Made by a program: the position numbers and the translations under genes
Part shown: positions 4,184 through 20,066 of the stretch, in pieces
Layout of the letters: the number at the start of each line of letters is the position of its first letter
Position numbering within the stretch: the first letter of the stretch is position 1
The notes under the pieces: model-generated
The model's database searches: none
The model's input: the letters and a program-made list of their open reading frames with translations, nothing else
Told to the model about the DNA's origin: nothing
Source: Pseudomonadota bacterium
Lineage (GTDB): Bacteria; Pseudomonadota; Gammaproteobacteria; Burkholderiales; REEB80
Assembly: GCA_028873515.1 (NCBI GenBank)
Contig: JAGWIG010000012.1
Location: forward strand, 1-61,530
DNA length: 61,530 nt
Direction: 5' to 3'

Positions 4184-4208
4184 AAGATTCCTTGTTTGAT
4201 AAATTATT

Positions 4209-4493: not shown

Positions 4494-4498
4494 GCGAA

Positions 4499-5668
4499 TT
4501 ACATTTCAATCTGGACAATTTCCCCAAACGGGGCTTCATTGATTTCCGAGGTTGAAATCCATAAGACTGGATAACCCGGCTCTTTTTTAGGAAACGAACC
4601 ATACATGTCCGTAAAGTAAAGGGCACATACAGGTTGATCCTCCATTTTGTCGATGTGTTCGAAAAAAGGCCGGAAGTCCGTTCCTCCACCCCCTTTTGGG
4701 TGAAAGGCTATCATATCATCCGGGCCAAATTCCTCACTATGCTGAATCGCTGCATCGGCATAAACCACCAACAAGGACTCGGGTTTAAGTTTATTGACGA
4801 TAGCACAGACCTCTGATTGGAACTGGCCCAGGATCTCTTCATCAATTGAACCGCTGGTATCAATACACAAGGCTATTTTCCCGACTTTCTCTGAATACAG
4901 TGAAGGAAGGTAAAACCCCATATGTATAAATCGTGGATTAGGTTTCCTATAGGAATAGTCTTCCCGGGCAGCCTGTTCAGCAAACCGGTGAAGAACTGAT
5001 TTCCAGTCCACTTTTTCATGCACCAGATCCTTGACCATCCGGCTCAGACAGCCCGGAAACTTCCCTCTCATGGCCGCAGTTTTTTCAGCCTGGCTAACAG
5101 CAAGTTTCCATTCCACCTTGGCTTGTTCAACGTCTTCATCTGGGTAGGGCCTGATTTCACCAGGCTGCATCTTTATGGGAGAAACATTATGACCTGTTTG
5201 CTGATTTTCTCCAGATTGACTGTCTTGTCCAGACCCGTTATTCTCCCCCTCCGAATCGGATCCACTTTCATTATCTGGAAGTAAATCATAGATTTTTTCG
5301 GCGGGCATGCCAGCGTATGCAGGGTTGCAAAGCCAGTCATCCAGTTTTACGAATCCGGATTGTTCAAGCAGGGGGTTAATGGCGTAGTCACAGGCTCTAT
5401 TCCATTTTTCATGATCCCGTTTACCTTTACGCCAGGCATGACCATTCGTGACATGCATAATCTCGTGGGCTAACAGTGTTTCTAAACCGTGAACGGTTTG
5501 TTTTGCCATAAACTCAGGGTTATATCCAATGACCTTTCCATCGGTGTAACAGGTATCGCAGGCTGTATCTTCAATGCATTTCAACCTGAACAGTAGCGAC
5601 CCAAAAAATGGATTACCCAGAACCAGATTGGTCTTGGCCTGAGTGATTTTATTTGCCACTTCATTCAT
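4499..5668 (-). CDS. VWA-like metallopeptidase-domain protein (DUF2201 type)
   Basis: A 389-residue protein. The N-terminal domain holds a zinc-protease-like HEIMH motif (68-72); residues about 130-165 form a Ser/Glu/Gly-rich linker; the C-terminal half is a VWA-like domain with the MIDAS-type DTSGS at 270-274. This architecture matches proteins annotated as putative metallopeptidase (DUF2201), which pair with MoxR AAA+ ATPases. Here it is the third gene after moxR and a DUF3150-like gene, the familiar plasmid and phage arrangement. Such ATPase-VWA pairs are thought to remodel protein complexes, but no substrate is known for this set. Whether the HExxH is catalytically active is untested. Confidence 0.8.
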   Translation of the reverse strand: MNEVANKITQAKTNLVLGNPFFGSLLFRLKCIEDTACDTCYTDGKVIGYNPEFMAKQTVHGLETLLAHEIMHVTNGHAWRKGKRDHEKWNRACDYAINPLLEQSGFVKLDDWLCNPAYAGMPAEKIYDLLPDNESGSDSEGENNGSGQDSQSGENQQTGHNVSPIKMQPGEIRPYPDEDVEQAKVEWKLAVSQAEKTAAMRGKFPGCLSRMVKDLVHEKVDWKSVLHRFAEQAAREDYSYRKPNPRFIHMGFYLPSLYSEKVGKIALCIDTSGSIDEEILGQFQSEVCAIVNKLKPESLLVVYADAAIQHSEEFGPDDMIAFHPKGGGGTDFRPFFEHIDKMEDQPVCALYFTDMYGSFPKKEPGYPVLWISTSEINEAPFGEIVQIEM

Positions 5669-5706
5669 AAGATAAAGAGAGGTGTTTCCACCCCTCCCCT
5701 CCTTTT

Positions 5707-6624
5707 CTAGAAAAGCGTTTCCATTACATTTTGCAGTGGATTAACTTTTTCCTGCTCTGTAAGGGTAACTCCCATGTACGCCGCCATGATGGATTGAATT
5801 TCACTGGCCTGGCGTGCAGTCTCGTTCCGGATCTGGATGTTGGAACGTAATGTTTCCGGATCATGGATAACCAGTTTCTGTTCAACCTGCTTGCGCAGGT
5901 TTTCCAGAGTTTCATCTTCCGTGAAATTAAGTCGAGGAAGTAAAGCAACCAATTCCCGGGCATTCTCAACGAGTGAATTACGGATGCCAGCATTAGGTTG
6001 AGACAGACGTTCGGTAATTTTACTGACGACACCAAACAACCTCTCCCATAAATCACGCATAGCCTTACCAACGGCTTCGTCAGCATAGTTGTCAATTGAA
6101 TCCTTGATGACAGTCATTTCAGTTTCCGGTAGGTTCACACCAAAATGAGCGGCATTTGGAAAAGGCAATACAAAGAACCGGATTTCAAATTTCTTGAACA
6201 ATTCTTCGGGAGGCAGATAGTCACTTTCCCTGAATAAACCGTTCAGAAGTTGTTTCGCTTCTTCTTTCAAATTATCGATATCATTAAGGAATGCTTCAAC
6301 AGCCAGAGCAAACTCACGGCGATATTCACGAATCCTGTCGGATACTTCCATATACATGGAAGATGGCAGTATGCGCACTCCCATTTGGTCATAGTCTAAT
6401 GTGACGTTGTAAAACCAGCGCCTGATTTCAGTGCTGATTTTTTGAACCTGGATGTAAGAACTTGAGTTCTCTGGAATCAGCAGTTTATTGAAACGTCCGA
6501 TATTATGATTAATTGCTGCATGATTGACGTTGACTTCATTGGTTGCCCGTTCGTCAAAGCGGCGGGCAGACCAGATCGAAATATTCAAATGGGCCAACAT
6601 GACGTTGCTGGATATATTATCCAT
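5707..6624 (-). CDS. DUF3150-like protein between MoxR and VWA genes
   Basis: I chose the ATG at 6624 (MDNISS), which has AAGGAAAA upstream, giving 305 residues; a longer frame reaches 6651 but overlaps moxR. The protein is largely helical with no catalytic motif that I recognise. Its placement between a MoxR ATPase and a DUF2201/VWA protein, and its size, match the DUF3150 family commonly found in this gene trio on plasmids and phages. It may bridge the ATPase and VWA protein. Family assignment rests mainly on context and general similarity. Confidence 0.65.
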   Translation of the reverse strand: MDNISSNVMLAHLNISIWSARRFDERATNEVNVNHAAINHNIGRFNKLLIPENSSSYIQVQKISTEIRRWFYNVTLDYDQMGVRILPSSMYMEVSDRIREYRREFALAVEAFLNDIDNLKEEAKQLLNGLFRESDYLPPEELFKKFEIRFFVLPFPNAAHFGVNLPETEMTVIKDSIDNYADEAVGKAMRDLWERLFGVVSKITERLSQPNAGIRNSLVENARELVALLPRLNFTEDETLENLRKQVEQKLVIHDPETLRSNIQIRNETARQASEIQSIMAAYMGVTLTEQEKVNPLQNVMETLF

Positions 6625-6634
6625 GTTCTTTTCC

Positions 6635-7678
6635 TTAAATTGTCCCGCCATTGATCAATTGCCCAAAATGACCGGACATGGCTTTGATAAAGGCCGGAGA
6701 AGTAGTAATGTTTTTATCCCGAAGCAACGCATCCCGGATGCACAGTACGGAATATTCCGCATAACCATTCTGTTCAAGTCGTTCAAGATAGGTCATGACA
6801 CGACTGAAATTATTGGCATTGGCTCTTGCAGCCAGCGCTGTGCTGACTGCGTAAAGTGTTGAGATTTCTTTTGGAATGATGGCTGAATCTGGGGCCATCA
6901 TAATGGCATCCGGATTGGGCAAATCCCTGTAAAGACGAAGAAAGGACGTAAAATTAACAGCCGCTTCTTCACCTACAGCTCCAGCGAAAGCCATGACCTC
7001 CATTTCTTTAGGCAAACCCAGGTTTAATAATTTCCCAAGATTCGCCCAGGTTCTGGGACTTGGACTATTAACCAGATCTGCGGTTGGATTAAACTTTTGC
7101 AAAAAATCCGGTTGAAACCGCAAATAGGCAATCACTTCACTTGGAACGTTGCTGGCTATGGCCCATGAACACCAGTCATCAAGTGTTGGGCTTAGCTCAA
7201 GTATCGTGGTAAAACGGCTTTTTACAGGTTCCAGAATCCCGCTTACCCCGGCACGATCAACGCGACGATTGGTAGCAGCAATAAATGAAATGCAGTCTGG
7301 AAGAACGTGTTCTCCAACCTGACGTGCAAGAAGAAGCTGCATATATCCTGCCTGGACACTTGCTGGTGCCTGGCCGAGATCATCCAGAAACCATACAGTT
7401 GGTTTTGTTGCCGTAATGGCCCTGTGTAAATCCCCATATGGAAGAAAAGTAGCATGGATCGCATCATTAGCGACCCATGGCAAACCTTTGACATCCGTAG
7501 GATCAGCAACAGCCGGATGGCTGATGATAATCTCTGCATTCGCAGCTTTAGCAGCCTGGGTAACAATATCGGACTTACCTATTCCAGGAGCGCCTGTAAT
7601 TAATACCGGGAGCTGAGTTGGAATGGTTTTTGCCAGTATTTGCCCTAATTGCGAAGGACGCACAAGAGTTGTGCTCAT
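6635..7678 (-). CDS. MoxR-type AAA+ ATPase
   Basis: A 347-residue ATPase with Walker A GAPGIGKS (29-36), Walker B-like WFLDD (96-100), and a sensor segment AATNRRVDRAGV. The domain plan is that of the AAA_5/MoxR-CobS family, which act as chaperone-like remodelers together with VWA proteins. It is the first gene of the minus-strand trio ending at 4499 and is preceded by TCAAGGAG near the start. The 200-bp leader upstream is unusually rich in hairpins, suggesting post-transcriptional control of the whole trio. Confidence 0.88.
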   Translation of the reverse strand: MSTTLVRPSQLGQILAKTIPTQLPVLITGAPGIGKSDIVTQAAKAANAEIIISHPAVADPTDVKGLPWVANDAIHATFLPYGDLHRAITATKPTVWFLDDLGQAPASVQAGYMQLLLARQVGEHVLPDCISFIAATNRRVDRAGVSGILEPVKSRFTTILELSPTLDDWCSWAIASNVPSEVIAYLRFQPDFLQKFNPTADLVNSPSPRTWANLGKLLNLGLPKEMEVMAFAGAVGEEAAVNFTSFLRLYRDLPNPDAIMMAPDSAIIPKEISTLYAVSTALAARANANNFSRVMTYLERLEQNGYAEYSVLCIRDALLRDKNITTSPAFIKAMSGHFGQLINGGTI

Positions 7679-7745
7679 CGTTGCTCCTTGAAAAAAGTTC
7701 GCGGAGCTTTCCCTGTACGGGCAAACTTGCCCGCGAGGGTTACAT

Positions 7746-7775
7746 GAATTCCTGGAAACCCAGGACGTTTGAAAA
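7746..7775 (-). promoter_or_regulatory. GAATTC stem-loop motif, copy B
   Basis: GAATTC is followed by the 5-bp stem CCTGG/CCAGG and then ACGTTTGAAAA, 68 bp upstream of moxR. It shares ACGTTTGAAAA with copy A. Between it and moxR is a further hairpin, CGGGCAA/TTGCCCG, near 7714-7730. Confidence 0.5.
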
Positions 7776-7828
7776 GATGTACTGGAATGCCGCTTAAGGC
7801 ATTCCAGTACATCCTCATGTTGAGGATG
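7776..7828. repeat. Two overlapping inverted repeats upstream of moxR
   Basis: A perfect 16-bp inverted repeat spans 7776-7791 and 7798-7813 with a 6-nt loop. Its right arm is reused by a second hairpin, ACATCCTCA/TGAGGATGT at 7810-7828 with outer GTAC extension, so only one of the two can form fully at a time. It lies between ssb (ends 7879) and moxR. It could be a bidirectional terminator, a protein-binding palindrome or an RNA switch; no T-run decides for a simple terminator. Confidence 0.7.
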
Positions 7829-7878
7829 TACTGTTTATTACATTAAACTTTAGGCTTTATACAAAAAATAAGTGCTCG

Positions 7879-8355
7879 CTAGAACGGTATATCATCAGAA
7901 AAGTCTTCAAAATTATCATGCTTATTTGTACTGGCATGATTTTGTGAACGGTTTTCAGAATGCCCGGCTGAAGATACTGCAGGCTGGTCTGGGCTACGAT
8001 TTTGTGTAGCGCTCCCTCCTTCAGATTTGCTGCCTAACATTTGCATCCGTTCACCGACAATTTCAGTGGTATATTGGTCCTGGCCTTCCTTGTTTTGCCA
8101 TTTGCGGGTTTGCAATTTACCTTCCAGATAAATGCTGGATCCCTTCTTTAAATATTGGCTAACTATTTCGGCCAGTTTTCCAAAAAAAACAACCTTATGC
8201 CATTCGGTCTTTTCCTGCTTTTCGCCGGATTTATCCTTCCATTGTTCGGATGTGGCAATGGCAAGATTGGCTATGGCATCTCCATTGGTTGCATACCGCA
8301 TTTCCGGATCACGTCCAAGATTGCCTATCAATATCACTTTGTTGACTGACGCCAT
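7879..8355 (-). CDS. ssb: Single-stranded DNA-binding protein
   Basis: A 158-residue SSB. The N-terminal OB-fold is plain from [31 protein letters not shown] and [16 protein letters not shown] Ser/Gln/Asn-rich linker follows, and the chain ends in the acidic tip DFSDDIPF used to recruit replication and repair proteins. It coats single-stranded DNA during replication and transfer. It is the last gene of an operon that begins with a sliding clamp-like gene at 10742. The start has AGGAGAAATAAAGC upstream. Element-borne SSBs are common on conjugative plasmids. Confidence 0.95.
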
Positions 8356-8358
8356 GCT

Positions 8359-9270
8359 TTATTTCTCCTGTATTTTTTGAATTTCCCAAAGGTTCTTAAA
8401 CCTCTGGACGAATTCACCGTGTTCCTGAACGGTTACGGCTGTTTTTCCTTTTTCGGAAATCGAAACCATGTCGCCTATCTTAACTTCTGCGCAGACAACG
8501 GCTCGCTCGATGTCTTTTCCAATCATCCTGACAATGGAACCGTCACTGGTTTCCACGTCAGCATAGTAACTGGAATAACTGTCATCACCTTCCCCATGCA
8601 TCCCTATACGGTGACACACTAATTTACCTGTGGTAGAACGAAGTTTTTTCCCTTTATGAAAAGGTTTTACCTCCACAATGTTTTGAGTGTCGGCTTCACT
8701 ATATGTTGAAGGGCTTGCGCTTTTGGCAGGCATGATTTGAGACGGTGGTTCCGTCTCAAAAAGCTTAACCTTGCCGGTTTCGCCCTTTTTAACGTGAAGT
8801 AAGCGCCTGGCAAGTTTGAGCGCATCCATTTCAAGCTCTTTTCGGACATGCCCTGCCTGGTATTCCACATTGCCCAGGTTTACCCAGGGTCCGTGTTTTA
8901 AGGCGTTTTTCCCTGACAGGCGAAGCTTTCTTGCCATAAGTTTCTTTTCTATATTGACATAGAGATAAACTATGGCCGTTGCCGAGACTTTCACACGCCA
9001 GATTTCATCGCTCCAAACATGCAATTCTGTTCGAGAAGCAGGAATGATGGTGACATTCGACTTAGAAGCGTCCGGTTGTGAAATCTCCGGAATTGGATTA
9101 GGTTTTTTGAAAGTCCTCAGTCTTACCGCTGCAAATCCAGCAATAGCAACAACTATCGTTAATGGATAAATAGCCAGCAAACCTATGGCAAATAATGAAA
9201 GCCATGCCCAACCCAGCCCAATAAGCCGGTGAGTAAGGTGCTGGCCCCGGATAATTACGGACTGAATCAT
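8359..9270 (-). CDS. Membrane-anchored hypothetical protein in the clamp-SSB operon
   Basis: A 303-residue protein I do not recognise. One or two hydrophobic segments lie at about 17-48 (WAWLSLFAIGLLAIYPL and TIVVAIAGFAAV), followed by a basic patch and a soluble region of roughly 250 residues. Its start overlaps the stop of the 145-aa gene upstream (ATGA type), and ssb begins 4 bp after it ends, so it is firmly part of the clamp/SSB operon. It may tether a replication or repair activity to the membrane, but that is a guess from context. Confidence 0.6.
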   Translation of the reverse strand: MIQSVIIRGQHLTHRLIGLGWAWLSLFAIGLLAIYPLTIVVAIAGFAAVRLRTFKKPNPIPEISQPDASKSNVTIIPASRTELHVWSDEIWRVKVSATAIVYLYVNIEKKLMARKLRLSGKNALKHGPWVNLGNVEYQAGHVRKELEMDALKLARRLLHVKKGETGKVKLFETEPPSQIMPAKSASPSTYSEADTQNIVEVKPFHKGKKLRSTTGKLVCHRIGMHGEGDDSYSSYYADVETSDGSIVRMIGKDIERAVVCAEVKIGDMVSISEKGKTAVTVQEHGEFVQRFKNLWEIQKIQEK

Positions 9271-9704
9271 ACTGATGCCTCCAGATTAAATGGGCCTAAT
9301 TTTTTTCTGAGATAAGCCTTGAATGCTGAACCCACCTCATTGATACCCATCAACCCATCAATTAACGCTTCTGAATTGTAGCCAAACATCAAGCATATTT
9401 CATTGAATGAAATAGCATATTCTTCTGGGCAGAGAAACCATCCGATAAGCTCATTGAGCTCATTGGCTTCTTCTTTATTTAATCCCCTGGTAGCTTTGGC
9501 AGCCGTTAACACATGCAATTGAACCAGACTGTCTTCAAGCAGAATGCCCAACAGCTCCTGATTTTCTTCAGGCGTCAAATCATCGAAAGAAGCTTTTTCT
9601 AAAAACTGATTGTTATTAAGACAGGTATTATCCAGCAATATAAATTCATTCGGTTTAGCCGATACTTCTAACGCCATATTCATGGCACGCGATATGTTTA
9701 CCAT
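9267..9704 (-). CDS. Acidic hypothetical protein in the clamp-SSB operon
   Basis: A 145-residue, Glu/Asn/Leu-rich, probably all-helical protein with no motif I can name. It starts 3 bp after the clamp-like gene ends, with GAGGGTATAAGCC as ribosome binding site, and its stop overlaps the next gene. Tight coupling to a clamp-like gene suggests a partner or regulator of that protein. Confidence 0.6.
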   Translation of the reverse strand: MVNISRAMNMALEVSAKPNEFILLDNTCLNNNQFLEKASFDDLTPEENQELLGILLEDSLVQLHVLTAAKATRGLNKEEANELNELIGWFLCPEEYAISFNEICLMFGYNSEALIDGLMGINEVGSAFKAYLRKKLGPFNLEASV

Positions 9705-9707
9705 GGC

Positions 9708-10742
9708 TTATACCCTCGGAGTTGCGATAACCCATAAACCGCGCTCGGATTCAAAGGAAACCAGTGGGCCTGACTCATTTCTAGCTATTTTTGTTGTTCC
9801 GCGTGAAGCGTTTAAGGCGGACATAACATGACGGCCAAGCAGGGTAAACCGGATATTCTGTTTTCCTGAAACTTCAGCCTCACATGATTCTGTGCCATCT
9901 GCCTGTATACCCTTCACAGAACAGTTTACCTGGGACTTGCCAACCTCAAGCTCAATGTAGGTCTGTTGAGTATTGTCAGCAAGGATAAAGGCAGTCTTAA
10001 TGGCCTCATTCAGGTTTTTGGGAAGAACACTCAAAACCGTTTCTTCTGGAAGAGACTGAATCATTTTATCCACATCAGGATAAGTTCCATCCACGGTTTT
10101 ACAGCGTATGGTAAATTCCTGGAATGTGAATTGCACAATATGGTTAGTGCCAATTGTGATAATGACTTTGTCTGAACTGGCAGCTTCGGTTGCAATTGTC
10201 TGTGCTGAATGAAAAGGCAGAATGAAACTGGCTTCGTTATCCGTTGCCACTTCTTTTTCAGATCGGGCAAGTGAAATGCCATTTGAAGCACAAATTACCA
10301 GTTTATCCCCAGTAAATTTTACATAGGCTCCATTCAGGTATTGACGGATATCATTACAGGACATGCAGTCTGCGACAAAATTCAGGGCATCTGCCAGAAC
10401 TTCACCAGACACGGTTACGCTTAGTAAAATTTCTGGTGGAGTAATGGACGGCACTAATTCATTTGTGGCCTTAAAGAGGTAATGACCTTCTGCATGGGTC
10501 AGGTTTAACTGGCCGTCTGCAATCTTGAGTGTCAATTCATTAGGTAATGCCTTAATCAGCTTGCAGATTTTCTGGTCAATTACGATATCCTGTGTACTAA
10601 ATAAATCATTATTCTGATCGAAAGCAACTTCTACCTGCATTTCATCGTTCGCGGTGATAATAACGTTTCCAGCAATGGAAACACCATGCCTGGATTTTGG
10701 AAGTGCCAAGCTTGCCTTTTCAAAGGCTGTTTTTATTTTCAT
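9708..10742 (-). CDS. DNA sliding clamp (DnaN/beta subunit)-like protein
   Basis: A 344-residue protein that reads like a divergent DNA polymerase III beta clamp. Landmarks in order are NGAYVKFTGDKLVICASNG (equivalent to the NGxxFE...ATDGHRLA region of DnaN), LPFHSAQTI, a GTYPDVDKMI segment (cf. GRFPDY) and a C-terminal TPRV-like tail where DnaN has the PMR(L) end. Length is near the usual 366. Clamps encircle DNA and tether polymerases; a mobile-element copy could serve an element polymerase, exclude the host clamp or recruit host Pol III. It opens an operon ending in ssb. Similarity is modest, and a structural prediction would settle it. Confidence 0.7.
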   Translation of the reverse strand: MKIKTAFEKASLALPKSRHGVSIAGNVIITANDEMQVEVAFDQNNDLFSTQDIVIDQKICKLIKALPNELTLKIADGQLNLTHAEGHYLFKATNELVPSITPPEILLSVTVSGEVLADALNFVADCMSCNDIRQYLNGAYVKFTGDKLVICASNGISLARSEKEVATDNEASFILPFHSAQTIATEAASSDKVIITIGTNHIVQFTFQEFTIRCKTVDGTYPDVDKMIQSLPEETVLSVLPKNLNEAIKTAFILADNTQQTYIELEVGKSQVNCSVKGIQADGTESCEAEVSGKQNIRFTLLGRHVMSALNASRGTTKIARNESGPLVSFESERGLWVIATPRV

Positions 10743-11253
10743 AATTTATCCCTATGAAAAATACCTAAAAGCCTCTTGACCCTCCATAATTTGTGGGCTT
10801 GAGGCGGTGATTTTGAAGAGAAAAACCAAAAATAATGCCGATTAAGGAATACTTGTTTTAGTTATTCGGCATATTTTGGACATCTTCATAAAGAAATGGT
10901 TCATCTTCATGAAAATCGGCCAGCAATCCTTGGCATGGATCACTATCTCACTGGTTTTAAACTTACGGATACTTATTTATGTAAATTTATCATTAACATA
11001 AAAAGCAGTTACAGAACATGATATTCATCATGTTGATATTTCCGGAACAAAATTCCGGTAATTGGATTCCAGTTGCCACTGGACAGGTCATAAACTTATT
11101 CGTGCTTTCCTATGAATTCCTGATTCATAGGAAAGCACCCTTAAGGCGCTTTTTGACAACCTGCGAACAGGTTAGGTGGCATATCCCGGAAGTAAGGCTG
11201 TCAGGGATAATTATGGGGATATCTTTTTAGATATGCAGAATAAATCGTCATGC
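10743..11253. other. 511-bp gene-free region with several hairpins
   Basis: No convincing gene lies between the clamp operon and the sbcC-like gene. The region holds a palindrome AACATGAT/ATCATGTT near 11015-11034, a CCGGAA/TTCCGG hairpin near 11041-11058, a strong 15-bp hairpin at 11102-11138, and AACCTG/CAGGTT near 11159-11174. A 70-codon frame here (11018-11230) has no ribosome binding site and odd composition. The promoter of the clamp operon should be in the left part. Confidence 0.5.
11102..11138. repeat. Perfect 15-bp hairpin
   Basis: GTGCTTTCCTATGAA at 11102-11116 is the exact reverse complement of 11124-11138, with a 7-nt loop TTCCTGA. A GAATTCC sequence lies across the loop. No T-run of terminator length follows on either strand, so a single-strand initiation site, a protein-binding palindrome or a sRNA end are possible. 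Confidence 0.75.
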
Positions 11254-13689
11254 TTATTCAACATGATTTAATTCATCAAGGTTGATGATGACATCCGCTT
11301 CATTCCATAAATCAGGGGTCTGGGTGACAAAATACTCACGATCATAGTTGCCAATTTCCAGCACCCTTTTTTTCATGGACATAAACTGCTTTTTACGTTC
11401 CGGATCCAGGGGGCCATCCGCTTCATCAGAAAAAAGCGTCTTATACTCATTGCCACTGTTATAGGCAATATACAAGGCAATGGCTCGCGTTAGCGTTTCA
11501 TTGATCCAGACTTTTTGCCCTCCTGACATGACCGTAATGCTTTTGGCTTCATTCCGATCTGCGTCATGAACAAGGATATCGAAACCTTCCTTCATTTCTC
11601 CTTTTGCCGTTTGCATCTGTGTCTGAATCGAGACGGTAAATCTTGGCCCATAACATTTCAGAAGCAAATCATTCACAATGCATGCGAGCGTTGGGCCAGC
11701 ATCATCGATACTCAAGGCAACAATGCCGTCATTTCCAAAAGCCTTTGATAACAGGATCCAGTAAGGTATTTCTTCTTCGATCCGATGTATTTTGTTTAAA
11801 GAAGATTCCAGTATTTGAGATTCTGTAGCTATCCGGACAGAAGATGTTTCAAGTTCTGCTATCACGGCCTCTAATTCGGATATCTTGACCGAATGTTCCC
11901 GGGAAACTTTGGCAGCTTGTTCAAGTTCGTTTTCTGCCTTTTTTACTTCATCAATACCCGCATAGAACGGAATAGTCGCCAGTTCCTGTTCAAGAGAAGC
12001 AATAGCCTGTTGGCTTGCATGGGTTCCACTGTCCTGCCTGGAAAGTAACTTTTGTTCTTCGGCTACTTCCTTTTCAATGGATTCCTTAAGCATGGCAGTC
12101 TGGCTATCTCCCATCATTTTTTGATGAGTGATCTGTTCCTTAACCGATGAGATCGTTTTTTCTGCCGCATGCAGTGATGCTTCTAATGCTGTTACAGATT
12201 GAAGCTCCCTGATTCTGCGACGGGTCGATTCAAGCTGGGTTTCGATTTCCTTCTTTTTTGCTTCACACGGGTTATCGGCTGTTTGAGCTTTAAGGACAAT
12301 AATCTGCTTGTTCACCTTTTCCCATTCGATGCGGTGATCCACCACAGCTTTTTCTGCCAAAGGCATAGATTCCTTAGCCAGCATGGCATCCTTAAGCAAG
12401 GGACATGTTGCAGGGAATGATGTGCCATTACATGGCACTTCAGAGATTAATGAAGCGCGTTTCCGATAACTCTCACGTTGTTCAACCAGAACCTTGCCTT
12501 CACGTTCAATTCCGATTTTTTGAGAAATTAGCGTTTCAATCTGTACCATATCTTTGTGATAGGATTCGATTTCTAGCTGAACTGAATTCAAGTTTTGCAT
12601 TAAAACAGCATCAAGGGTGTCCAGCTCTGCCAAAGTAACTTTAGCCGTCATCATTTCTTCTTTTCTGGAAATAATTTTTTCGGCAGCAACCAGGGATGAA
12701 TTAAAAGCCGCCAGGCTTTTTTCTGTATCTGCAGTGACTTTAACCAGAGATTCATTCAGATTCCTGATCTTTTGACGTACCGAATTCATGTCTTCATGAA
12801 AGATAGCCAGTTCCTTGGCAAACCGGTTCTTTTCGACATCAATTCTTTCCAGAATCATTGCACGGCGTTGCACTTTTTCCTGCTCGGAATCCTGACGCGC
12901 ACGTGCCGTAGCCAGTTCAATCTGCATCTTTTCAACCTGTGAAACCAGTTGTGCACCAGATTCTACAAGTTGTACGTGAGATGCCCGGTGCGCGTTCAAT
13001 GTCTGTGTTACTGCGTCAAGCTGCAGCTTTAAGGATTCTGCCTTGGCATTATCCGGCCTTAGCTCCTCCAGCCTTGATTTCAGCTTCTTGCAGACATCTG
13101 CAGCCTTGGCTCCCAATTCCCGTATTTTTTCAAGCCCAAGCAGATCAGCCATGAGGCTTTTGATTTCCCCATTGCTATAACTTGATAAAGGCCTTTTGGT
13201 CTGCGCGGAAAATACGGAAGTGAAAAAAGTTTCAGGACTACCGAGGATTGACTCGATGCATCGATCATAGGTATCTGTTTTTCCATCAGATACGGTTCCA
13301 TCCGGCATGACGTAGGGTTCCCAGCTTTCTCCTTTCTTGATGTGGAGGAAAGCATCCTGTTTTTTAGTTTTATCCGTAACCTTAAAGAGCAGGATTGACT
13401 GATATTGATGGCCTTTATGTTCCCAATGCAATTCTTTCCTGGCTTCAGAGCGGGAAAGATGATCATAGAACGAAAAACTTCCCGGTGAATTTGCCGTTGC
13501 CCTGGAAGGCATAATCCGATAAGGATGCATGTTGTCCAGGATGGTGGTTTTCCCAGTACCATTTGGTGCTACTATCGTAATGGTTTTGGCATTACCACTC
13601 AGTTTTTCCAAATCAAGGATCAGTTCATCCCTACCCATTCCTGAAGCAATACCTGAGAATCCAGATAGGATTAAATGTCTGGGTGTCAT
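11254..13689 (-). CDS. SbcC/Rad50-like SMC ATPase
   Basis: An 811-residue ABC-type ATPase with Walker A APNGTGKTT (41-49), long heptad-rich coiled coils (about 190-380 and 470-640), a central cysteine pair in PCNGTSFPATCP where Rad50/SbcC proteins carry the zinc hook (non-canonical spacing here), an ABC signature MSGGQK (721-726) and Walker B with D-loop FSDEADGPLD (753-762). It is shorter than E. coli SbcC. With an SbcD-like nuclease (15851-17044) it would form a hairpin- and end-processing nuclease. The start overlaps the 76-aa gene upstream (ATGA). sbcC and sbcD are separated here by envelope genes, which is unusual. Confidence 0.82.
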   Translation of the reverse strand: MTPRHLILSGFSGIASGMGRDELILDLEKLSGNAKTITIVAPNGTGKTTILDNMHPYRIMPSRATANSPGSFSFYDHLSRSEARKELHWEHKGHQYQSILLFKVTDKTKKQDAFLHIKKGESWEPYVMPDGTVSDGKTDTYDRCIESILGSPETFFTSVFSAQTKRPLSSYSNGEIKSLMADLLGLEKIRELGAKAADVCKKLKSRLEELRPDNAKAESLKLQLDAVTQTLNAHRASHVQLVESGAQLVSQVEKMQIELATARARQDSEQEKVQRRAMILERIDVEKNRFAKELAIFHEDMNSVRQKIRNLNESLVKVTADTEKSLAAFNSSLVAAEKIISRKEEMMTAKVTLAELDTLDAVLMQNLNSVQLEIESYHKDMVQIETLISQKIGIEREGKVLVEQRESYRKRASLISEVPCNGTSFPATCPLLKDAMLAKESMPLAEKAVVDHRIEWEKVNKQIIVLKAQTADNPCEAKKKEIETQLESTRRRIRELQSVTALEASLHAAEKTISSVKEQITHQKMMGDSQTAMLKESIEKEVAEEQKLLSRQDSGTHASQQAIASLEQELATIPFYAGIDEVKKAENELEQAAKVSREHSVKISELEAVIAELETSSVRIATESQILESSLNKIHRIEEEIPYWILLSKAFGNDGIVALSIDDAGPTLACIVNDLLLKCYGPRFTVSIQTQMQTAKGEMKEGFDILVHDADRNEAKSITVMSGGQKVWINETLTRAIALYIAYNSGNEYKTLFSDEADGPLDPERKKQFMSMKKRVLEIGNYDREYFVTQTPDLWNEADVIINLDELNHVE

Positions 13690-13916
13690 GATTCCCCCAT
13701 GCGACCAGTTCTGCTATTGTCAGATTGAATACTGTCATGAATTGCGTAGCAGGCTGTGGCGTTTGTTTCCCGGCAAACCAGAATGGCTTTCCCGGAAGGT
13801 AATGCGCCTATACCAACTGCTGCTACTCCTATTTTCTTGTCCATTTCACTGAAATTGATCTCCCGTACTTCATGAAGACCTCTTTTTTCAAGAAATTCTT
13901 TTACTTCGTTGCTCAT
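13686..13916 (-). CDS. Small hypothetical protein coupled to the SbcC-like gene
   Basis: 76 residues, not recognised. The ATG has a strong AAGGAG upstream, and the gene overlaps the start of the sbcC-like gene by 4 bp, so the two are translationally coupled. There are no membrane segments or metal motifs. Confidence 0.65.
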   Translation of the reverse strand: MSNEVKEFLEKRGLHEVREINFSEMDKKIGVAAVGIGALPSGKAILVCRETNATACYAIHDSIQSDNSRTGRMGES

Positions 13917-13980
13917 CTGTTACTCCTTGACCTATATCATCCCGGACGACCTGTTTCTGATCGTTCCAGGCCGAGGTTTT

Positions 13981-14020
13981 GAATTCTTTCCCCGGCATAA
14001 AAATTTGCAGGGGTTTGAAA
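13981..14020 (-). promoter_or_regulatory. GAATTC stem-loop motif, copy H
   Basis: GAATTC, then CCCC ... GGGG with a long AT-rich loop, then TTTGAAA, 65 bp before the 76-aa/sbcC transcript. The stem is less regular than in copies A-D. The rest of 13917-14190 shows no gene; a 99-codon frame there lacks a ribosome binding site. Confidence 0.4.
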
Positions 14021-14190
14021 TCCGGTATTCGTGTTCCTGAATTACGGTTGATTAAATTCCAGCTTGCGCTGGTGCTAAAAAACGATGTTTTCCAAAGGAT
14101 TACCATTTCCCTTTGGGAAAGACCGGTTTTAGTAATTGGGATGACGTAGTTAGAAAGATCCCCTCCACGTTGAACGTGGAGGGGCATTGA

Positions 14191-14754
14191 TCAGAAAGCG
14201 GAAATTTTGACCTGAATGGTCTGTCCGGGTGGAGACTGCATTAAGGCAGTCCCTCTTTTACCGTTGTATACATACGTTACACGGTATCCGGTAATAACCC
14301 TTTTCTGCACGTTCTGACATTGCTGTTGCATGCCAGTACTGGTGTTGCTGCTATTGTTTTGTAGCCGATCGCCTGTTATGGCCCCTGCAATGGCTCCTGC
14401 CGCACCTGCTGCGACCTTGCCATTACCCTGGCCAACCTGGCTGCCGACTAGCGCACCGACTACACCACCGAAAATGGATCCAACCATTGAATGGTTTTGA
14501 ACCTTGGCCCGGACAGGAACGTTATAGCATTCCTGGCCAACCACAGTCTGATAAACCGGGCTGCTGCTTACAACTGCTGCCTGATCGATTATATCGGCAG
14601 CCTGGGCTGGCGATACAAACGTAGACAGCATGAACAGACCAACCATTCCAAAAACATTCAGGCAGTTGTCAATTTTATGAGGGCAATGTGGTGCGGCAAA
14701 TACAGCGATACTAGAAATGATGAGGACAAAGAGTTCGAAATAAATGTGATTCAT
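14191..14754 (-). CDS. Glycine-zipper envelope protein (17-kDa antigen-like)
   Basis: A 187-residue exported protein. The centre (about 90-130) is a glycine-zipper 2TM segment (GGVVGALVGSQVGQGNGKVA and GAAGAIAGAITGD) as in Rickettsia 17-kDa-antigen/SlyB-like proteins. The C-terminal part has the usual YRVTYVYNGK pattern. A signal-peptide-like stretch (MVGLFMLSTFVSPAQA) begins at residue 37, so translation may really start at 14646; the longer frame overlaps the upstream gene's stop by 4 bp. Such proteins sit in the outer membrane or periplasm; a role in conjugation or envelope stability is possible but unproven. Confidence 0.75.
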   Translation of the reverse strand: MNHIYFELFVLIISSIAVFAAPHCPHKIDNCLNVFGMVGLFMLSTFVSPAQAADIIDQAAVVSSSPVYQTVVGQECYNVPVRAKVQNHSMVGSIFGGVVGALVGSQVGQGNGKVAAGAAGAIAGAITGDRLQNNSSNTSTGMQQQCQNVQKRVITGYRVTYVYNGKRGTALMQSPPGQTIQVKISAF

Positions 14755-15071
14755 TTCTGATCTCCTGGGCCATAACCATTATAGTAGGTAGTCGGGCCGT
14801 AAGTGACCTGGCCGACCGATTCATATCCAACCTGCTGTTGAACAGACTGGACGTTCTGGCTGGAATCAGCCATTCGGTTTGAAACATACTGGGCAGCCAT
14901 TCCACCCAGAGCGCTCCCCAACATCGGTCCATAATAGCTGTTATTTCCGCCAAGTCTGGATCCAAGCGCAGAACCAATCATGGTTCCAAGCATTTGACTG
15001 TAATAATCTGCAGCATTGGCATTCACTGAAATGCTTAACAGGACAGCCATAATTAAAAATGATTTTTTCAT
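14751..15071 (-). CDS. Small exported glycine-zipper protein
   Basis: I chose the ATG at 15071, which has GTGGAG upstream and begins a good signal peptide (MKKSFLIMAVLLSISVNANA). The mature 86 residues contain two glycine-zipper stretches (GTMIGSALGSRLGG, GPMLGSALGGMAAQ). It overlaps the following 187-aa glycine-zipper gene by 4 bp, making a two-gene envelope pair. Confidence 0.7.
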   Translation of the reverse strand: MKKSFLIMAVLLSISVNANAADYYSQMLGTMIGSALGSRLGGNNSYYGPMLGSALGGMAAQYVSNRMADSSQNVQSVQQQVGYESVGQVTYGPTTYYNGYGPGDQK

Positions 15072-15123
15072 GTTTACTCCACAATTAAACGGAGAAACCC
15101 AACCCATAAGAGTGTGGATCCCA

Positions 15124-15531
15124 TTATGCGTTGAGATAATTGACACTTGAATGTCTTTCCATGTAAAGACGAGCCTCTACCATGGATTTGCGCTGGATTT
15201 CCTCAAACTTTCCATGCATGGGCTCCAGAAGAATCTGCTGGTTTTTTGAAAGGATGATCTTGCGGATTACCTTCTTCCCGGCAACAGGTTGCAAGGATAA
15301 TGCAGCGCCATGTCCTAACGGATACAGAATATTCGATGAATGATTGTCATTAGCCGCAACCTTGGATGTAACCTTGGATTGGACTTTTACTGAACGTCTT
15401 TTCCATTTCCATATTCCCCATGCTGCCAAGGCATACACAGGAAATAAAAAGGGAAGGACTGCCAGGGCAAAAGTCAAAACGATTGCTGCCCAAAGGTAAA
15501 GCATTCCCTTGATGGATATAATATGTTGCAT
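15124..15531 (-). CDS. Small membrane protein under the duplicated leader
   Basis: 135 residues from the ATG at 15531, which has a strong GAGGAGAACACC site. One or two hydrophobic segments (MLYLWAAIVLTFALAVLPFL, then VYALAAWGIW) precede a basic cytoplasmic stretch (KWKRRSVKVQSK) and a helical tail. Function unknown. Its leader is nearly identical to that of the gene at 32992-33270, although the two proteins differ apart from MQ at the start; the shared part is therefore regulatory. Confidence 0.7.
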   Translation of the reverse strand: MQHIISIKGMLYLWAAIVLTFALAVLPFLFPVYALAAWGIWKWKRRSVKVQSKVTSKVAANDNHSSNILYPLGHGAALSLQPVAGKKVIRKIILSKNQQILLEPMHGKFEEIQRKSMVEARLYMERHSSVNYLNA

Positions 15532-15690
15532 GGTGTTCTCCTCGATCGCTGGTCGGGCGAAAGAAAAAACCACCATGCTGACCAGGCAGGTGGTAAAACA
15601 CTGCCTGGTTAGGCTGACTCTCCTGGGATAAATCCTGGGAGATGAATTCTTCGATAACCTCGAAGACGGGGGTTTAGCACTAATAATTAT
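15532..15690 (-). promoter_or_regulatory. Duplicated leader with antiterminator/terminator hairpins, copy 1
   Basis: Read on the minus strand: a CATAAT box (about 15690), a GAATTC-associated stem CTTCGA/TCGAAG (15649-15665), a hairpin with TCTCC/GGAGA and GGAT/ATCC arms (15619-15642), then two alternatives. Arms ACCAGGCAG/CTGCCTGGT (15581-15609, 9 bp perfect) compete with ACCACC-TGC/GCA-GGTGGT (15569-15594), which is followed by six T (15564-15569). The shared segment makes them mutually exclusive, as in transcription attenuators and riboswitches. The ribosome binding site follows. No known riboswitch class is recognised. Confidence 0.65.
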
Positions 15691-15814
15691 GGGGAAGGCT
15701 GTAGCCGTATTTTGGTGAAATCATGATGGTTTTTTTGATGTTTTCAACAACTGGCTGTCCAATAAATCTGCTTTATTGGACAATCAACTATTGACAAGGG
15801 TAACCCCAGTGATG

Positions 15815-15840
15815 AAACCCGCCGCCAAAGCGACGGGTTT
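15815..15840 (-). terminator. Terminator of the SbcD-like gene
   Basis: On the minus strand AAACCCG and CGGGTTT arms with a GCTTTGGCGG loop region form a hairpin 10 bp after the sbcD-like stop. The T-run is only three long, so the terminator is weaker than its neighbours. Confidence 0.6.
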
Positions 15841-15850
15841 CCTGGGTAGA

Positions 15851-17044
15851 CTATTGCAGAATCGATGCAACGATCTCATCGGGTTCCTTCAAAAGAAGGG
15901 ACTCCAACCGTGTGGATAAGGGTTCCTGATTCGTATTGGAAACCTCACACCATTTTGCCAGCTTGTCACCAAAGCTTTGCGAGTTGTTTATTCCTTCAGC
16001 ACGGGTACGCTGAATAGGAAGAATACGACCTTCAAGCTTGATTCCTGCGGATTGCTCAAACAAGACTTCAATGGCTGCCCGGTCGATGACGTTCTGATGT
16101 TCTTCATCAATCTGCCAACGAACCCGGACAAAGGCTCCCTGCGCTTCACCAGCTAGTTGACGCAGTGCATCCATGTCCGGCTCGCCATTAAATTCTGCAT
16201 AAAGCATTTTTCTGGCCGGTGTTTCCTTGAACGAGAAGGAAGCATTGGATGCTGTCACATCCCAAACAATAAACCCTTTTGGATCTTCCTCACCATAATG
16301 CAGCCTTCCGATTGAACCGGCATAGGCAATACTTTGCCCGCCATTTTCCCAATGTTGATGTTTGTGAATATGGCTGAGCATGACCGCCGATGTTCCGGCA
16401 GAAAACAGGATGCCTGTGGTGAATTCATGATCCAGGGAAGCCATGGTGAATCCATGCTCCGTGATGCATCCTGTTACTGTTCCATGGGATACCAGGACAG
16501 TCGGGATGCCGGAAGCAGAGGCGGCCATGTTGATATCCGTAAATCCCGACATTAGGTCTGCAAGGATTTCACTTAATGACGTGGAAGCATTTTCTGCACC
16601 AATTGTTGCAGCCAGAACGCAACGGTTAACGGTTGGTATGACTGTAAACAGACATTTTGTTCCGTTTGGGAGTGCATGAAAGCGCCACCCTTCCGAAGCA
16701 ATCCATTCGTTTTTATCGGTAAGGGCTACCTGCCCTATGCGATCAGCTACGAACACAGGATAGTTATTGCCAATTTTCCCAAACAGGTTCAGGGTTCCAG
16801 GAGGTTCATGCGAGAAGGTTCCCTGCAGCATGAGTACCGGCATCACCGTGGTCAGTTTAACAATTTGCCGAGCCAATGCATCAACGGCTGGAGAATGTAA
16901 ATCCTGGCGATGGTCGGTTGAGTCTCCTGATAAAACGGCGACTTCACAGCCTGTCGCCTGTTCTACCGCATAAGCAAAACAGCGATCTACTTCTTCCAGG
17001 GTTTCATTGGAATAATGAAGATCGCCTGCATGAAAAATCTTCAT
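15851..17044 (-). CDS. SbcD/Mre11-like exonuclease
   Basis: A 397-residue calcineurin-like metallophosphoesterase. Motifs in order: DLH at 8-10 (FHAGDLHYS), GDSTDHR near 40, a LQGTFSHE segment where Mre11 has GNHD, LVSHG near 195, and LSHIHKHQ near 223. These are the metal ligands of SbcD/Mre11 nucleases, although GTFSHE replaces the canonical GNHD. Partner of the SbcC-like ATPase at 11254-13689. It has AAGGAAAGATA before the ATG and lies 9 bp after the 408-aa gene, in the same transcript. The likely job is processing hairpins or ends during replication or transfer. Confidence 0.85.
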   Translation of the reverse strand: MKIFHAGDLHYSNETLEEVDRCFAYAVEQATGCEVAVLSGDSTDHRQDLHSPAVDALARQIVKLTTVMPVLMLQGTFSHEPPGTLNLFGKIGNNYPVFVADRIGQVALTDKNEWIASEGWRFHALPNGTKCLFTVIPTVNRCVLAATIGAENASTSLSEILADLMSGFTDINMAASASGIPTVLVSHGTVTGCITEHGFTMASLDHEFTTGILFSAGTSAVMLSHIHKHQHWENGGQSIAYAGSIGRLHYGEEDPKGFIVWDVTASNASFSFKETPARKMLYAEFNGEPDMDALRQLAGEAQGAFVRVRWQIDEEHQNVIDRAAIEVLFEQSAGIKLEGRILPIQRTRAEGINNSQSFGDKLAKWCEVSNTNQEPLSTRLESLLLKEPDEIVASILQ

Positions 17045-17053
17045 TATCTTTCC

Positions 17054-18280
17054 TTAAATTGGCGAATCAATGTTGCAGATTTCGCTTCGATAATCTGGAT
17101 CATCGAGCCGTTCATCCACTTCAATCAAGATGTCTGTCAGGATTTTCTGATCCTGTTTCCAGTTATCGCCCCATTTCAATGAAGCATACATATTGAAACT
17201 GTTGAAATTGATGGAGGAAAACTGGCAAGCATCCATAATTGTTTTAAGCATGCCTTCTGGATGAATCACGCCATTGTCGTCCGGTTGAATCCCGGATTGG
17301 GTTTCCGTCTGATCTGTGCCAGGGACAGGGATATCTGGCGCCGGATCCTGCTTTACGGTATCAATTACATGCCCATCATTCAATCTCAAGGCGCTTTCCG
17401 ATCCCTGTATCTGATGTTGTCGTTCAAGAAGCAGGCTTGATGTAATGACGGACGATTCCAAAGTGATGATATATTGCTTGACTCGCGTAACCGACCCATC
17501 ATCCTTAATCATGGGCACTTCCGAAACTGCCTTTGTAAGCCAGAAAATTGGGCTTCCGTCCCGATTCAGACCTGAGAGCTTATTGCTTCTTAATCCCTTA
17601 ATCAGGTTTAATTGGGCAATACAGCCTGACATGCCATAGAAAGAAGTCAAAGGTGTTTCAATGAGTCCTGCACCAGGAATCCCAGGAATGTAATACAGGA
17701 TTTTACCGCTCATATTGCATTGACGGGATTGGTATTCCTTGCATTGTTCAGGAATGCATTCTCCACGAACGACATGTTTTCTTCCACCAAATTGTCGCAC
17801 TGCTTTCCCGTTTTCATTAATGGGAATGGTCGCAAAAGTCGTGCAGACGCGCTGACCTTCTTCGGTGAATTCAGACCAGTATTTTCTTCCGGCAGAAACA
17901 TAAGAGGCAAGGGAGTGTGGAATCACTTGATACGGGTCATCAAATACAAACATGACAGGGAAACGCCAAAGACGTTTCTGTGTGTCACCATTTCTGATCT
18001 CACCGTACAAATCCATAATTTGATTGGCCACGTCCGGATTTTTGAAATCACAGCGTCGGGCAACGAAATAAGGAATATTTTTAGGCACAAGACTATTTTT
18101 AATGTTGACGGTTTCTGAAATCTGCTTTTCGATTTCGTCAAATGACAGACCTTGTTCAACCCCGTCCTTGTAGATTTTTTTGGCAGCTTCATTGCTCCAG
18201 GCTGTTTTTGTTGGAACCTTGACGCCAGCTCTTACTTTGCCATCCACCGGCAATATGGCCGGTTTGATAAGTTGCTCCAT
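17054..18280 (-). CDS. Putative recombination-directionality-factor-like protein (Gp3 type)
   Basis: A 408-residue protein. The middle (about 165-240) holds a cysteine cluster (GECIPEQCKEYQSRQC ... GCI) followed by FYGMSG, and upstream is LWRFPVMFVFDD. This pattern recalls the family annotated as hydrolase/metal-binding or Gp3-like recombination directionality factor found on phages and conjugative elements. The C-terminal third is an acidic Pro/Gln linker and a small helical domain. Strong AAGGAAAACC site before the ATG. If the family is right it may steer excision versus integration; I hold this as tentative because no catalytic site is evident. Confidence 0.45.
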   Translation of the reverse strand: MEQLIKPAILPVDGKVRAGVKVPTKTAWSNEAAKKIYKDGVEQGLSFDEIEKQISETVNIKNSLVPKNIPYFVARRCDFKNPDVANQIMDLYGEIRNGDTQKRLWRFPVMFVFDDPYQVIPHSLASYVSAGRKYWSEFTEEGQRVCTTFATIPINENGKAVRQFGGRKHVVRGECIPEQCKEYQSRQCNMSGKILYYIPGIPGAGLIETPLTSFYGMSGCIAQLNLIKGLRSNKLSGLNRDGSPIFWLTKAVSEVPMIKDDGSVTRVKQYIITLESSVITSSLLLERQHQIQGSESALRLNDGHVIDTVKQDPAPDIPVPGTDQTETQSGIQPDDNGVIHPEGMLKTIMDACQFSSINFNSFNMYASLKWGDNWKQDQKILTDILIEVDERLDDPDYRSEICNIDSPI

Positions 18281-18297
18281 GGTTTTCCTTTATAGAA

Positions 18298-18318
18298 TAA
18301 ATTCCGGGGCGACCCGGT
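18298..18318 (-). promoter_or_regulatory. GAATTC-like stem-loop motif, copy I
   Basis: A(A)ATTCCGGGG followed by CCCGG, 18 bp from the start of the 408-aa gene. It is a variant of the shared leader motif (AAATTC instead of GAATTC) and sits downstream of copy G in the same leader. Confidence 0.35.
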
Positions 18319-18420
18319 ATGAATAAAAAACCAGTTATAATTCCTGATCATCGTTGAACTGATTACAGGATTTTTCATGAAATGATCAGATACCAGAATT
18401 TGGCATTTCCAATCATTATT

Positions 18421-18461
18421 GAATTCCAGGAAATCCCTGGGCGATTGATGAATCTCATTAT
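18421..18461 (-). promoter_or_regulatory. GAATTC stem-loop motif, copy G, with CATAAT box
   Basis: GAATTC with stem CCAGG/CCTGG, then ATTATG on the plus strand (CATAAT on the minus strand) at 18454-18459, which could be a -10 box. It is 141 bp upstream of the 408-aa gene. Confidence 0.45.
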
Positions 18462-18530
18462 GATTGGTTTTTGGTATGACTTTATGATGAATCACTAACA
18501 AAAATTCATATCTTTTGCTGGTGATTGAAT

Positions 18531-18565
18531 GAAATAAGGACCGCCTTGTGGGCGATCCTTATTTC
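18531..18565 (-). terminator. Terminator of the 362-aa gene
   Basis: A long stem GAAATAAGGA-CGCC / GGCG-TCCTTATTTC with a 5-nt loop, one internal mismatch, overlapping the stop codon of the gene ending at 18564. Little T-run follows, but the stem itself is strong. Confidence 0.65.
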
Positions 18566-19652
18566 AGGCGGCCTTGATTAATTCTGGCTGAATGGAGGGT
18601 TTTGTTTCCAGTGCTAAAACTGTTGAATCAAAATAGGTTAAAAGCTCATCCAGCGCATTTTTGCGTCCAATATATCCACCGATTATCTCCGAGTTTTCAA
18701 GCACCCAGTCTGGATTTTCATCAACTGTCATGTTCTTGACATAATGAGCAATGACGATATCAAAGGTGTCTCCCTTGATCCATTCATTATATATTTCCAG
18801 GTTGGCACTGGCGTTGGTCAACAAGGCGCGACGGTGACCTGTGGCAAGCTGTTTATCAGAGCAGGCCTTGGCCAGTTTGAGCGCTTTCCCCCATAGGTAG
18901 TTTTTATCATCCGATGTATCAATGACTCCAGATGAATTTACCAGATTGAATTTCGGCTTTTGTCCCGCTACCCATTCTTTCTGTTCAATCCAGTAATGAG
19001 CAAATACAGGAGCTTGACTCTTGATGGTATCCAGACACTCTTTGTCAGGAACCCAGATCAAATCGCACTGGATCGCTGTTTGATCGGATTTGATGCGCAA
19101 TCCATTATCAAACTGGTCAAGCAGAACGGCGTTAATGTTACCTATTTCCCCGGATGCACGAAGTTTTTTCCATTCTTGCGTAGCAACCCGTTCCCAGCCA
19201 TAACCTGCCTCAATGACTTTGCTGGAAAGTTCAAACTCAAGCTTATCCCTGTTTTCGTAATCAATTTCATTAATGATTTCATCGACAAGTTCTCGCCCTG
19301 ACAAACCAGAGGTTAACACAGCCGTAGCCAGTTCAACCTTGAAGATAGTAGTAAGAATTTCTTTTAATTGAATGCGTGTTGCATGAATGACCTCATCGGA
19401 ATTAAGTTCAGGCTGATCATCCGAATTCAAGGCCAGGGCAAGATGCACAGGATAGCCTTGATCCGTTTTTTTATGAAGGGCGCCCATACCCTCAGCCATC
19501 GTTAAAGGATTCTCACAACCCTCGATATCATCTGCCAAATAGCCTACGACAAGATATTCATTGGCCTGAAAGATAAAATGATCCCCATTATCCTGTTCCG
19601 ACAATAAATAAGGCAATTCAAGATCGTGGATGTTTATATCCTTATTGTCCAT
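18564..19652 (-). CDS. Hypothetical protein
   Basis: 362 residues from the ATG at 19652, preceded by CGGAGCATCCATT; a longer frame to 19673 lacks a site. It is a soluble, acidic, mixed alpha/beta protein without signal peptide, membrane segments or a catalytic motif I recognise. A patch WKKLRASGEIGNINAVLLDQFDNG lies near 165-190. It is the first gene of the minus-strand block facing away from the CRISPR operon and carries its own leader motif (copy E) and terminator. Confidence 0.55.
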   Translation of the reverse strand: MDNKDINIHDLELPYLLSEQDNGDHFIFQANEYLVVGYLADDIEGCENPLTMAEGMGALHKKTDQGYPVHLALALNSDDQPELNSDEVIHATRIQLKEILTTIFKVELATAVLTSGLSGRELVDEIINEIDYENRDKLEFELSSKVIEAGYGWERVATQEWKKLRASGEIGNINAVLLDQFDNGLRIKSDQTAIQCDLIWVPDKECLDTIKSQAPVFAHYWIEQKEWVAGQKPKFNLVNSSGVIDTSDDKNYLWGKALKLAKACSDKQLATGHRRALLTNASANLEIYNEWIKGDTFDIVIAHYVKNMTVDENPDWVLENSEIIGGYIGRKNALDELLTYFDSTVLALETKPSIQPELIKAA

Positions 19653-19800
19653 AATGGATGCTCCGTATTTCAATAACCGTTATTTTGATAATAACCATGA
19701 ATTGACAGCTCTGGGATAATGCTTCGCTGTCTTTGATTTGATGCGTGCAATGATCTTGTCATTGAACACACATAAAGTTTCACCATGACTGGTGAGAATG

Positions 19801-19832
19801 GATTCCTCGAATCCCGAGGACAGGTTTAGACG
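19801..19832 (-). promoter_or_regulatory. GAATTC-like stem-loop motif, copy E
   Basis: GATTCCTCG and CGAGGA arms followed by AGGTTTAGACGC, 149 bp upstream of the 362-aa gene. The AAAC-type flank in minus sense (GTCTAAACC) matches copies C and D (GCTAAACC, GTCAAACC). Confidence 0.4.
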
Positions 19833-19927
19833 CTTTTAATTATTATTCGTTTATTCATCCTAAATTGAACGAATGCTAGGTATTTTGTCTGACTATTCCT
19901 CTTGGTAATAATCCCCGTCTATATGAC

Positions 19928-20066
19928 AAAAACGTGTACATACTGAATATTACACATATCAGCAATATCAATCAGTTACAAATTTCGTAAAAAAATGGGC
20001 ACGGTGCCCATTTTACGAATTTTTGATAACTACATGATTTTATTAAATGGCGGTGTGTACACGTTT
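19928..20066. repeat. Nested inverted repeats upstream of the CRISPR operon
   Basis: Outer arms AAAACGTGTACA (about 19929-19940) and TGTACACGTTTT (20055-20066) are exact reverse complements 114 bp apart. Centred between them is a long imperfect hairpin, about 19981-20025, with the 13-nt palindrome GGGCACGGTGCCC and flanking TTCGTAAAA/TTTTACGAA arms. Such an arrangement could be an operator bound by a dimeric regulator at two spaced sites with a looped centre. Confidence 0.65.

Follow-up and report, generated by a model that had tools for sequence, protein, structure and literature searches.

Coordination of operons in mobile elements is best known through DNA-binding activators and repressors. 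Leaders regulated by CsrA/RsmA carry a GGA motif in a hairpin loop. Three further leader systems come close to the one described here, as far as their sources portray them: the stems of the HK022 put RNA, about 70 nt long, adjoin one another, and it contains a triplex as well as non-canonical pairs (PMC9378689); in ANTAR RNAs both hairpins carry a hexaloop, with A in position 1 and G in position 4 (PMC3369931); and LoaP-dfn leaders combine a UNCG loop with a NusG paralogue (PMC12691694). SGI1, according to the description drawn on here, uses the AcaCD activator of a helper plasmid. Among the titles and abstracts listed for leaders, antitermination and IncC/AcaCD leaders there was nothing comparable to the family reported below.

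The window, i.e. the whole 61,530-nt stretch of DNA analysed, carries a CRISPR locus with RAMP and other Cas proteins, DinG-type helicases and two arrays, which we take to be of type IV-A. It also encodes a phage-type integrase, a primase, SSB, DUF2201 and a beta-clamp-like protein. Relatives of the primase occur on many plasmids, the best-ranked ones being largely betaproteobacterial, and three of the opened ones have FlhC or FlhD genes nearby.

A structured mRNA 5´ leader (leader A) occupies the minus strand between about 15700 and 15532. A first-pass annotation regarded it as a candidate attenuator or riboswitch, duplicated in the element before unrelated genes, in which an antiterminator competes with a terminator. 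Both hairpins do exist where it placed them, and they share bases (Table 1). The antiterminator, here called P3, has the stem ACCAGGCAG/CTGCCTGGT and a folding energy of -16.6 kcal/mol, while the terminator-like hairpin with its six T reaches -11.5 to -11.9 kcal/mol. Leader A folds more stably than its shuffled versions (z -4.8, 0/200 equally low), and so does the second copy, leader B (z -3.1, 1/200 equally low). In both predicted folds a linker of 5 nt separates the first two hairpins, P1 and P2; P1 of leader A lies 16 nt 3´ of the CATAAT box.

Table 1. Positions of leader elements and associated reading frames in the window
Feature	Position	Strand	Remarks
Leader A, CATAAT, probable -10 box	15686-15691	-	from sequence
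Leader A, putative transcription start	~15679	-	deduced from sequence
Leader A, P1, CCG-UCUUCGA/GGUUA/UCGAAGA-AU	15646-15669	-	hairpin common to 13 leaders
Leader A, P2, variable second hairpin	15619-15642	-	fold and alignment
Leader A, P3, 9 bp	15581-15609	-	antiterminator of the first-pass annotation
Leader A, terminator-like hairpin with U6	15564-15594	-	strong only in copies A and B
Leader A, P4, 19-bp hairpin	15528-15578	-	pairs Shine-Dalgarno sequence and start codon
135-aa ORF behind leader A	15124-15531	-	no family, no relative found
Leader B	33271-33424	-	88% identical to A, E 1.8e-49 (blastn)
Leader B, -10 box	33419-33424	-	
Leader B, P1	33383-33404	-	
Leader B, P3	33320-33348	-	
Leader B, P4	33267-33317	-	
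92-aa ORF behind leader B	32992-33270	-	no Pfam match
Leader F, P1	19802-19823	-	before 362-aa ORF (18564-19652)
Leader G, P1	52322-52343	-	before ORF 51780-52178, CbtA-like match slightly below Pfam's cut-off
Leader H, P1	4364-4384	-	before Toprim primase ORF (3128-4183)
Leader N, P1, stem UCUGUGG/CCACAGA	37119-37140	-	before PLD-like ORF (36304-36930); E 0.03

When leader A was compared by blastn with the whole genome (275 contigs, 3.4 Mb), leader B was recovered as annotated, together with a third copy, leader C, on contig C167 (84% identical) and a short match, leader D, on contig C182. The motif had rightly been called duplicated, and it is in fact more than that. Identity between A and B reaches 98% over 86 bases, beginning just inside the gene; the genes themselves differ, as had been stated, neither ORF matching Pfam, and the 135-aa protein has no relative among the viral contigs or plasmids searched. 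Common to A, B, C and D are CCG/CTG, the 7-bp hairpin P1, ATTCA, the second hairpin P2 and GTC. Beyond P1, a leader on contig C59 (J) is more distantly related to A, B and C, with local scores of 39 against A and 41 against C (best of 1000 shuffles, 31 and 28). It keeps ACCACC.TGCC.GGTCAGCA and has lost the GGUGGU partner, which is also lost in C. The P3 stem contains a C-U mismatch in B and C, in agreement with the earlier remark that substitutions preserve pairing in part. A conserved peptide frame behind the identity, a possibility the annotation had itself raised, was looked for and ruled out: three two-base indels separate leaders A and B and a one-base indel lies inside the best conserved block of J, so that a conserved peptide does not account for the identity.

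The most conserved part of these leaders, absent from the first-pass annotation, is the 7-bp hairpin P1, in which GUC...GAAU is invariant. Thirteen leaders begin with it; they are spread over six contigs of a single genome, with six of them in the window and seven elsewhere. A covariance model built from A, B, C and D (R1) brought in places whose stem letters differ (window 19823, 52343 and 4384; C167:5658; C262; C59). From one R1 list of nine matches C141 (E 2.87) and an antisense match were dropped; another, of 15, held nine members and six matches that were dropped. A pattern search added P1 at C145:259 and C167:1640; it gave 35 matches in the genome, 12 of them members, against 17 for a reversed-pattern control. 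Leader M, which scored E 0.36 with R1, was recognised only by this search. The second model (R2, 12 rows) recovered 12/12 of its own rows at E 4.5e-5 or better, plus window position 37140. The latter, leader N, differs in its stem letters and agrees in its flanks and CATAAT box; it was kept because of its -10 box and 7-bp stem. Altogether R2 gave 16 matches in its own genome at E<=10, of which 13 were kept (the 12 model rows and N). One of the others, C246:2980 (E 0.06), was dropped because the next same-strand ORF of at least 60 aa starts about 690 nt behind it, while C81:3432 (E 0.10) and C246:9661 (E 3.6) were dropped without a gene check.

All 13 P1 hairpins point to a same-strand start codon 126 to 327 nt downstream, the start codons having been assigned by us. 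The ORFs behind them include a primase, a PLD-like protein, the sub-cut-off CbtA-like protein and several without family; the one behind leader K runs off the contig end. Leaders A, B, C, J and N have a CATAAT box 12-16 nt ahead of the motif, the remaining ones other or less clear boxes. Contig C167, which bears three P1 leaders, also encodes a 345-aa sigma-70 family protein (L154:14682-15719). This protein might read the CATAAT promoters, where no clear -35 box is seen. On the minus strand of the same contig, near leader C, there is a HEARO RNA (RF02033, 92.4 bits, above cut-off; L201:2115-2362). All six P1 leaders of the window are on the minus strand, though the element has genes on both strands. 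A strong terminator-like site (window 4468-4493) immediately precedes the presumed promoter of leader H.

Comparison of the 13 rows speaks for P1 acting as RNA. In the alignment 97.8% of 91 cells pair, both sides change in 5/7 stem pairs, and the covariation score, 0.524, exceeds that of shuffles (0.251; 0/500 as high) and of slid versions (at most 0.139). Since 9/13 rows were found by models or a pattern favouring pairing, this pairing is partly built into the row set. Less dependent on such bias is the comparison of the orthologous leaders D and E (283/330 columns identical), whose four substitutions in P1 form two compensatory pairs. Leader D has 98 predicted pairs: 70 recur unchanged in E, nine are kept with one change and six with two; six are broken, all beyond nt 124, and seven fall on gaps. 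About five tandem hairpins are kept between D (L155:3667-3340) and E (L226 before 5315) over about 120 nt, a chain with no broken pair and some pairs on gaps.

An inverted repeat near the -10 box of several promoters could also be a palindromic DNA operator, lying behind the promoter and serving a common repressor. Two members, however, can differ in up to 5/7 letters of their arms while complementarity is retained. Across the 13 leaders loop length ranges between 2 and 5 nt, the 3-nt flanks are symmetric in 0/13, and gene orientation is the same in 13/13. Variable loops, asymmetric flanks and common orientation fit RNA better, and we regard the operator as highly improbable.

Folding extends beyond P1. 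With P1 removed, the bodies of 11 non-redundant leaders have a mean z of -3.2, against -0.86 in 93 other upstream regions (p 4e-5); these controls are 150-nt stretches before mechanically chosen ORFs, some probably inside genes, and they therefore differ from true leaders. Stable start-proximal hairpins, on average more folded than controls, are what one would expect if P1 and the hairpins following it merely shielded the 5´ end of the message from decay, with no dedicated factor. Such shielding needs no invariant flanks, yet in 13/13 rows the G, U, C that precede and the G, A, A, U that follow are invariant (the search patterns and models favoured these letters), and we consider it unlikely. 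The P1 hairpin and the leader structure are well supported, computation bearing out the hairpins, their recurrence, the covariation of P1, its position and orientation and the extra folding of the leaders. Rfam 15 gave no match in the window at the gathering cut-off, and permissive Rfam scans of leader A and 13 loci gave nothing at the motif above the gathering score. The earlier view of a structured, cis-regulatory-looking RNA before unrelated genes holds, except for its attenuator switch, which is not conserved. Evidently, this is a real family of structured leaders without an Rfam match, larger than first noted and with a different conserved part.

The 3´ part of the leaders is where the attenuator has to be judged. 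It would switch, under a ligand, protein or ribosome, between the 9-bp hairpin and an intrinsic terminator at U6, and in A and B the two hairpins do share bases, with -11.9 kcal/mol for the best hairpin before the U-run. Weak hairpins still precede U-runs in C (-3.0 kcal/mol) and J (-2.6 kcal/mol), but they use other letters and ACCACC no longer takes part; the ACCACC:GGUGGU-U6 hairpin is confined to A and B. A strong, exclusive terminator conserved in the homologues is therefore not found, and the terminator/antiterminator switch does not stand as a conserved principle. Further, the 5´ hairpin P3, with its low energy in A, would form first, and the site is absent from a simple terminator scan. 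The same bases in A and B also form a stronger structure: GGUG and the U-run enter P4, over the Shine-Dalgarno sequence and AUG, at -27.5 (A) and -30.1 (B) kcal/mol, with 0/200 shuffles equally low. The unpaired probability of the Shine-Dalgarno sequence is 0.00-0.01 in A and B, where the ribosome site is thus paired in the fold, as in leaders that mask it. This stronger P4 makes translation at least as likely an output as termination, and for leaders A and B attenuation appears to us improbable. Our best guess is that their output is translational masking; it does not extend to the whole family. The P4 equivalents in C and J do not exceed shuffles in stability (z +0.58 and 0.03), and covariation of P4 in these two leaders was dropped as a line of evidence, matching folds being no better than shuffles. 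As a set-wide trait, masking of the ribosome site was not found (11 members against 68 controls, p 0.59).

What the 13 leaders have in common is P1, and we propose, with about even confidence, that P1 is the docking site of a common trans-acting factor, Shine-Dalgarno masking providing the output in A and B. We infer the following course, including the direction of control. Transcription would start shortly behind the putative -10 box and yield P1 first, then the further hairpins, which differ between leaders. On the nascent or finished RNA, P1 would dock one common factor, probably a protein that binds RNA and comes from an element or from the host, and this shared docking would join unrelated operons into one RNA-level regulon. 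In A and B, as long as P3 is formed, the 3´ part would be free to fold P4 and bury the Shine-Dalgarno sequence and start codon. If P3 is opened, ACCACC may pair with GGUGGU, breaking P4 and freeing the start; if that pairing forms while the U-run is at the polymerase exit, transcription would end. The shared hairpin suggests common RNA-level control of these messages, several of them on mobile DNA.

The factor was sought among known kinds. A Pfam scan of 50 ORFs of the window and 11 on other contigs, a selection of all ORFs, showed no RNA-regulator domain. The ProQ/FinO domain has no match in the genome, which leaves a FinO/ProQ route without its protein. A NusG domain occurs once genome-wide (178-aa frame, contig C193), so that the paralogue needed for a LoaP/RfaH route was not found. 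Nor do the leaders look like CsrA/RsmA targets, GGA being present at the P1 loop in 4/13.

With no NusG paralogue for the LoaP/RfaH route, P1 could instead act like put, an RNA close to the transcription start to which RNA polymerase itself binds and which causes terminators to be ignored in long mobile-element operons. P1 leaders are start-proximal, have tandem hairpins and precede long runs of same-strand genes, just as HK022 putL is described directly behind its promoter with two stem-loops (PMC9378689); the run that follows A contains a terminator-like site (14184-14160). Against this, the put stems adjoin in that description and stem I carries a triplex (PMC9378689), whereas P1 consists of a plain 7-bp stem, at least 5 nt of linker separating it from the next hairpin. 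There is no enrichment of terminator-like sites (19 in positions 1-20000 against 20.8 in shuffles), and the gene run that starts with A stops at a strong one (4493-4468). A put-like role hence seems to us rather doubtful, and docking of a common factor remains our preferred reading of P1.

Outside this genome, several searches were made. A pattern scan of genome contigs gave at least 113 stretches; among the matches listed, GAGTC within 45 nt behind P1 was confined to loci of this genome. In viral contigs one leader pattern gave no stretch, a further pattern 13, five of which agree in the letters surrounding the match (all 13 judged by eye alone), and the P3 core pattern two. Model R2 matched 14 of 300 genomes at E<=0.05, this genome included, where about 15 are expected by chance, and the 13 others scored at most 26.4 bits against 31-46 bits for the 12 model rows (read by eye). 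It matched three of 369 genomes at E<=0.002, again including this one, and at E<=0.001 only this one of 398; the three samples overlap, and the large ones were run under stricter filters, which lose weak matches. A covariance search of plasmids, advised earlier as a check, was run with R2 on nine records, six of which matched at E<=10, with a top score of 22.3 bits (E 0.0023). Blastn of the leaders against plasmids and phages gave pieces of 20-38 bases or nothing. Among the matches read, no convincing copy of a P1 leader was thus found in the three genome samples, the nine plasmid records, the viral-contig patterns or the plasmid and phage blast, and the evidence comes entirely from one genome.

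Two spacers of the window (27581 and 26727) match contigs of the same genome. One agrees at 32/33 positions with C262 (L226:349-381); the other matches C262 over 23 bases, every one identical (L226:4476-4498), and C182 over 19 (L155:2818-2836), the last match falling inside the 196-aa ORF behind leader D. Five P1 pieces were checked against 19 CRISPR spacers, and none was present.

A wider reading, which we offer as speculative and would not ourselves bet on, is that the P1 regulon spans unrelated mobile elements of one cell and that the RNA-based control of the CRISPR-bearing element is tapped by the spacer-matched islands. P1 would then be read by the candidate factor or directly by RNA polymerase. 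If true, coordination after transcription start would be common to the CRISPR-bearing element and the spacer-matched islands. P1, at about 24 nt, is a small, concrete and testable RNA handle toward finding the factor.

Compared with known systems, the leaders A and B resemble translational riboswitches in that ribosome site and start codon lie in P4, with a competing pairing; unlike known Shine-Dalgarno-masking leaders, they have no Rfam class at the motif, and the downstream ORFs have no evident common pathway. As in HK022 put, short tandem hairpins stand right behind a mobile-element promoter; unlike put as its source depicts it, P1 forms a stem-loop of 7 bp that a single-stranded linker follows. 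A pair of small hairpins, joined by a short linker and followed by a terminator-like structure, recalls ANTAR RNAs, but the A1/G4 hexaloop given for these is found in 0/13 P1 hairpins (such hexaloops occur elsewhere in the first 100 nt of 5/13 leaders). One small leader hairpin common to several operons of one genome is a trait shared with LoaP-dfn, from which, as described, our leaders differ in that 9/13 P1 loops begin with GG and the NusG match is single. Finally, if the islands do tap the control of the CRISPR-bearing element, P1 would be an RNA counterpart of the use that SGI1, in the account available, makes of its helper plasmid's activator AcaCD.
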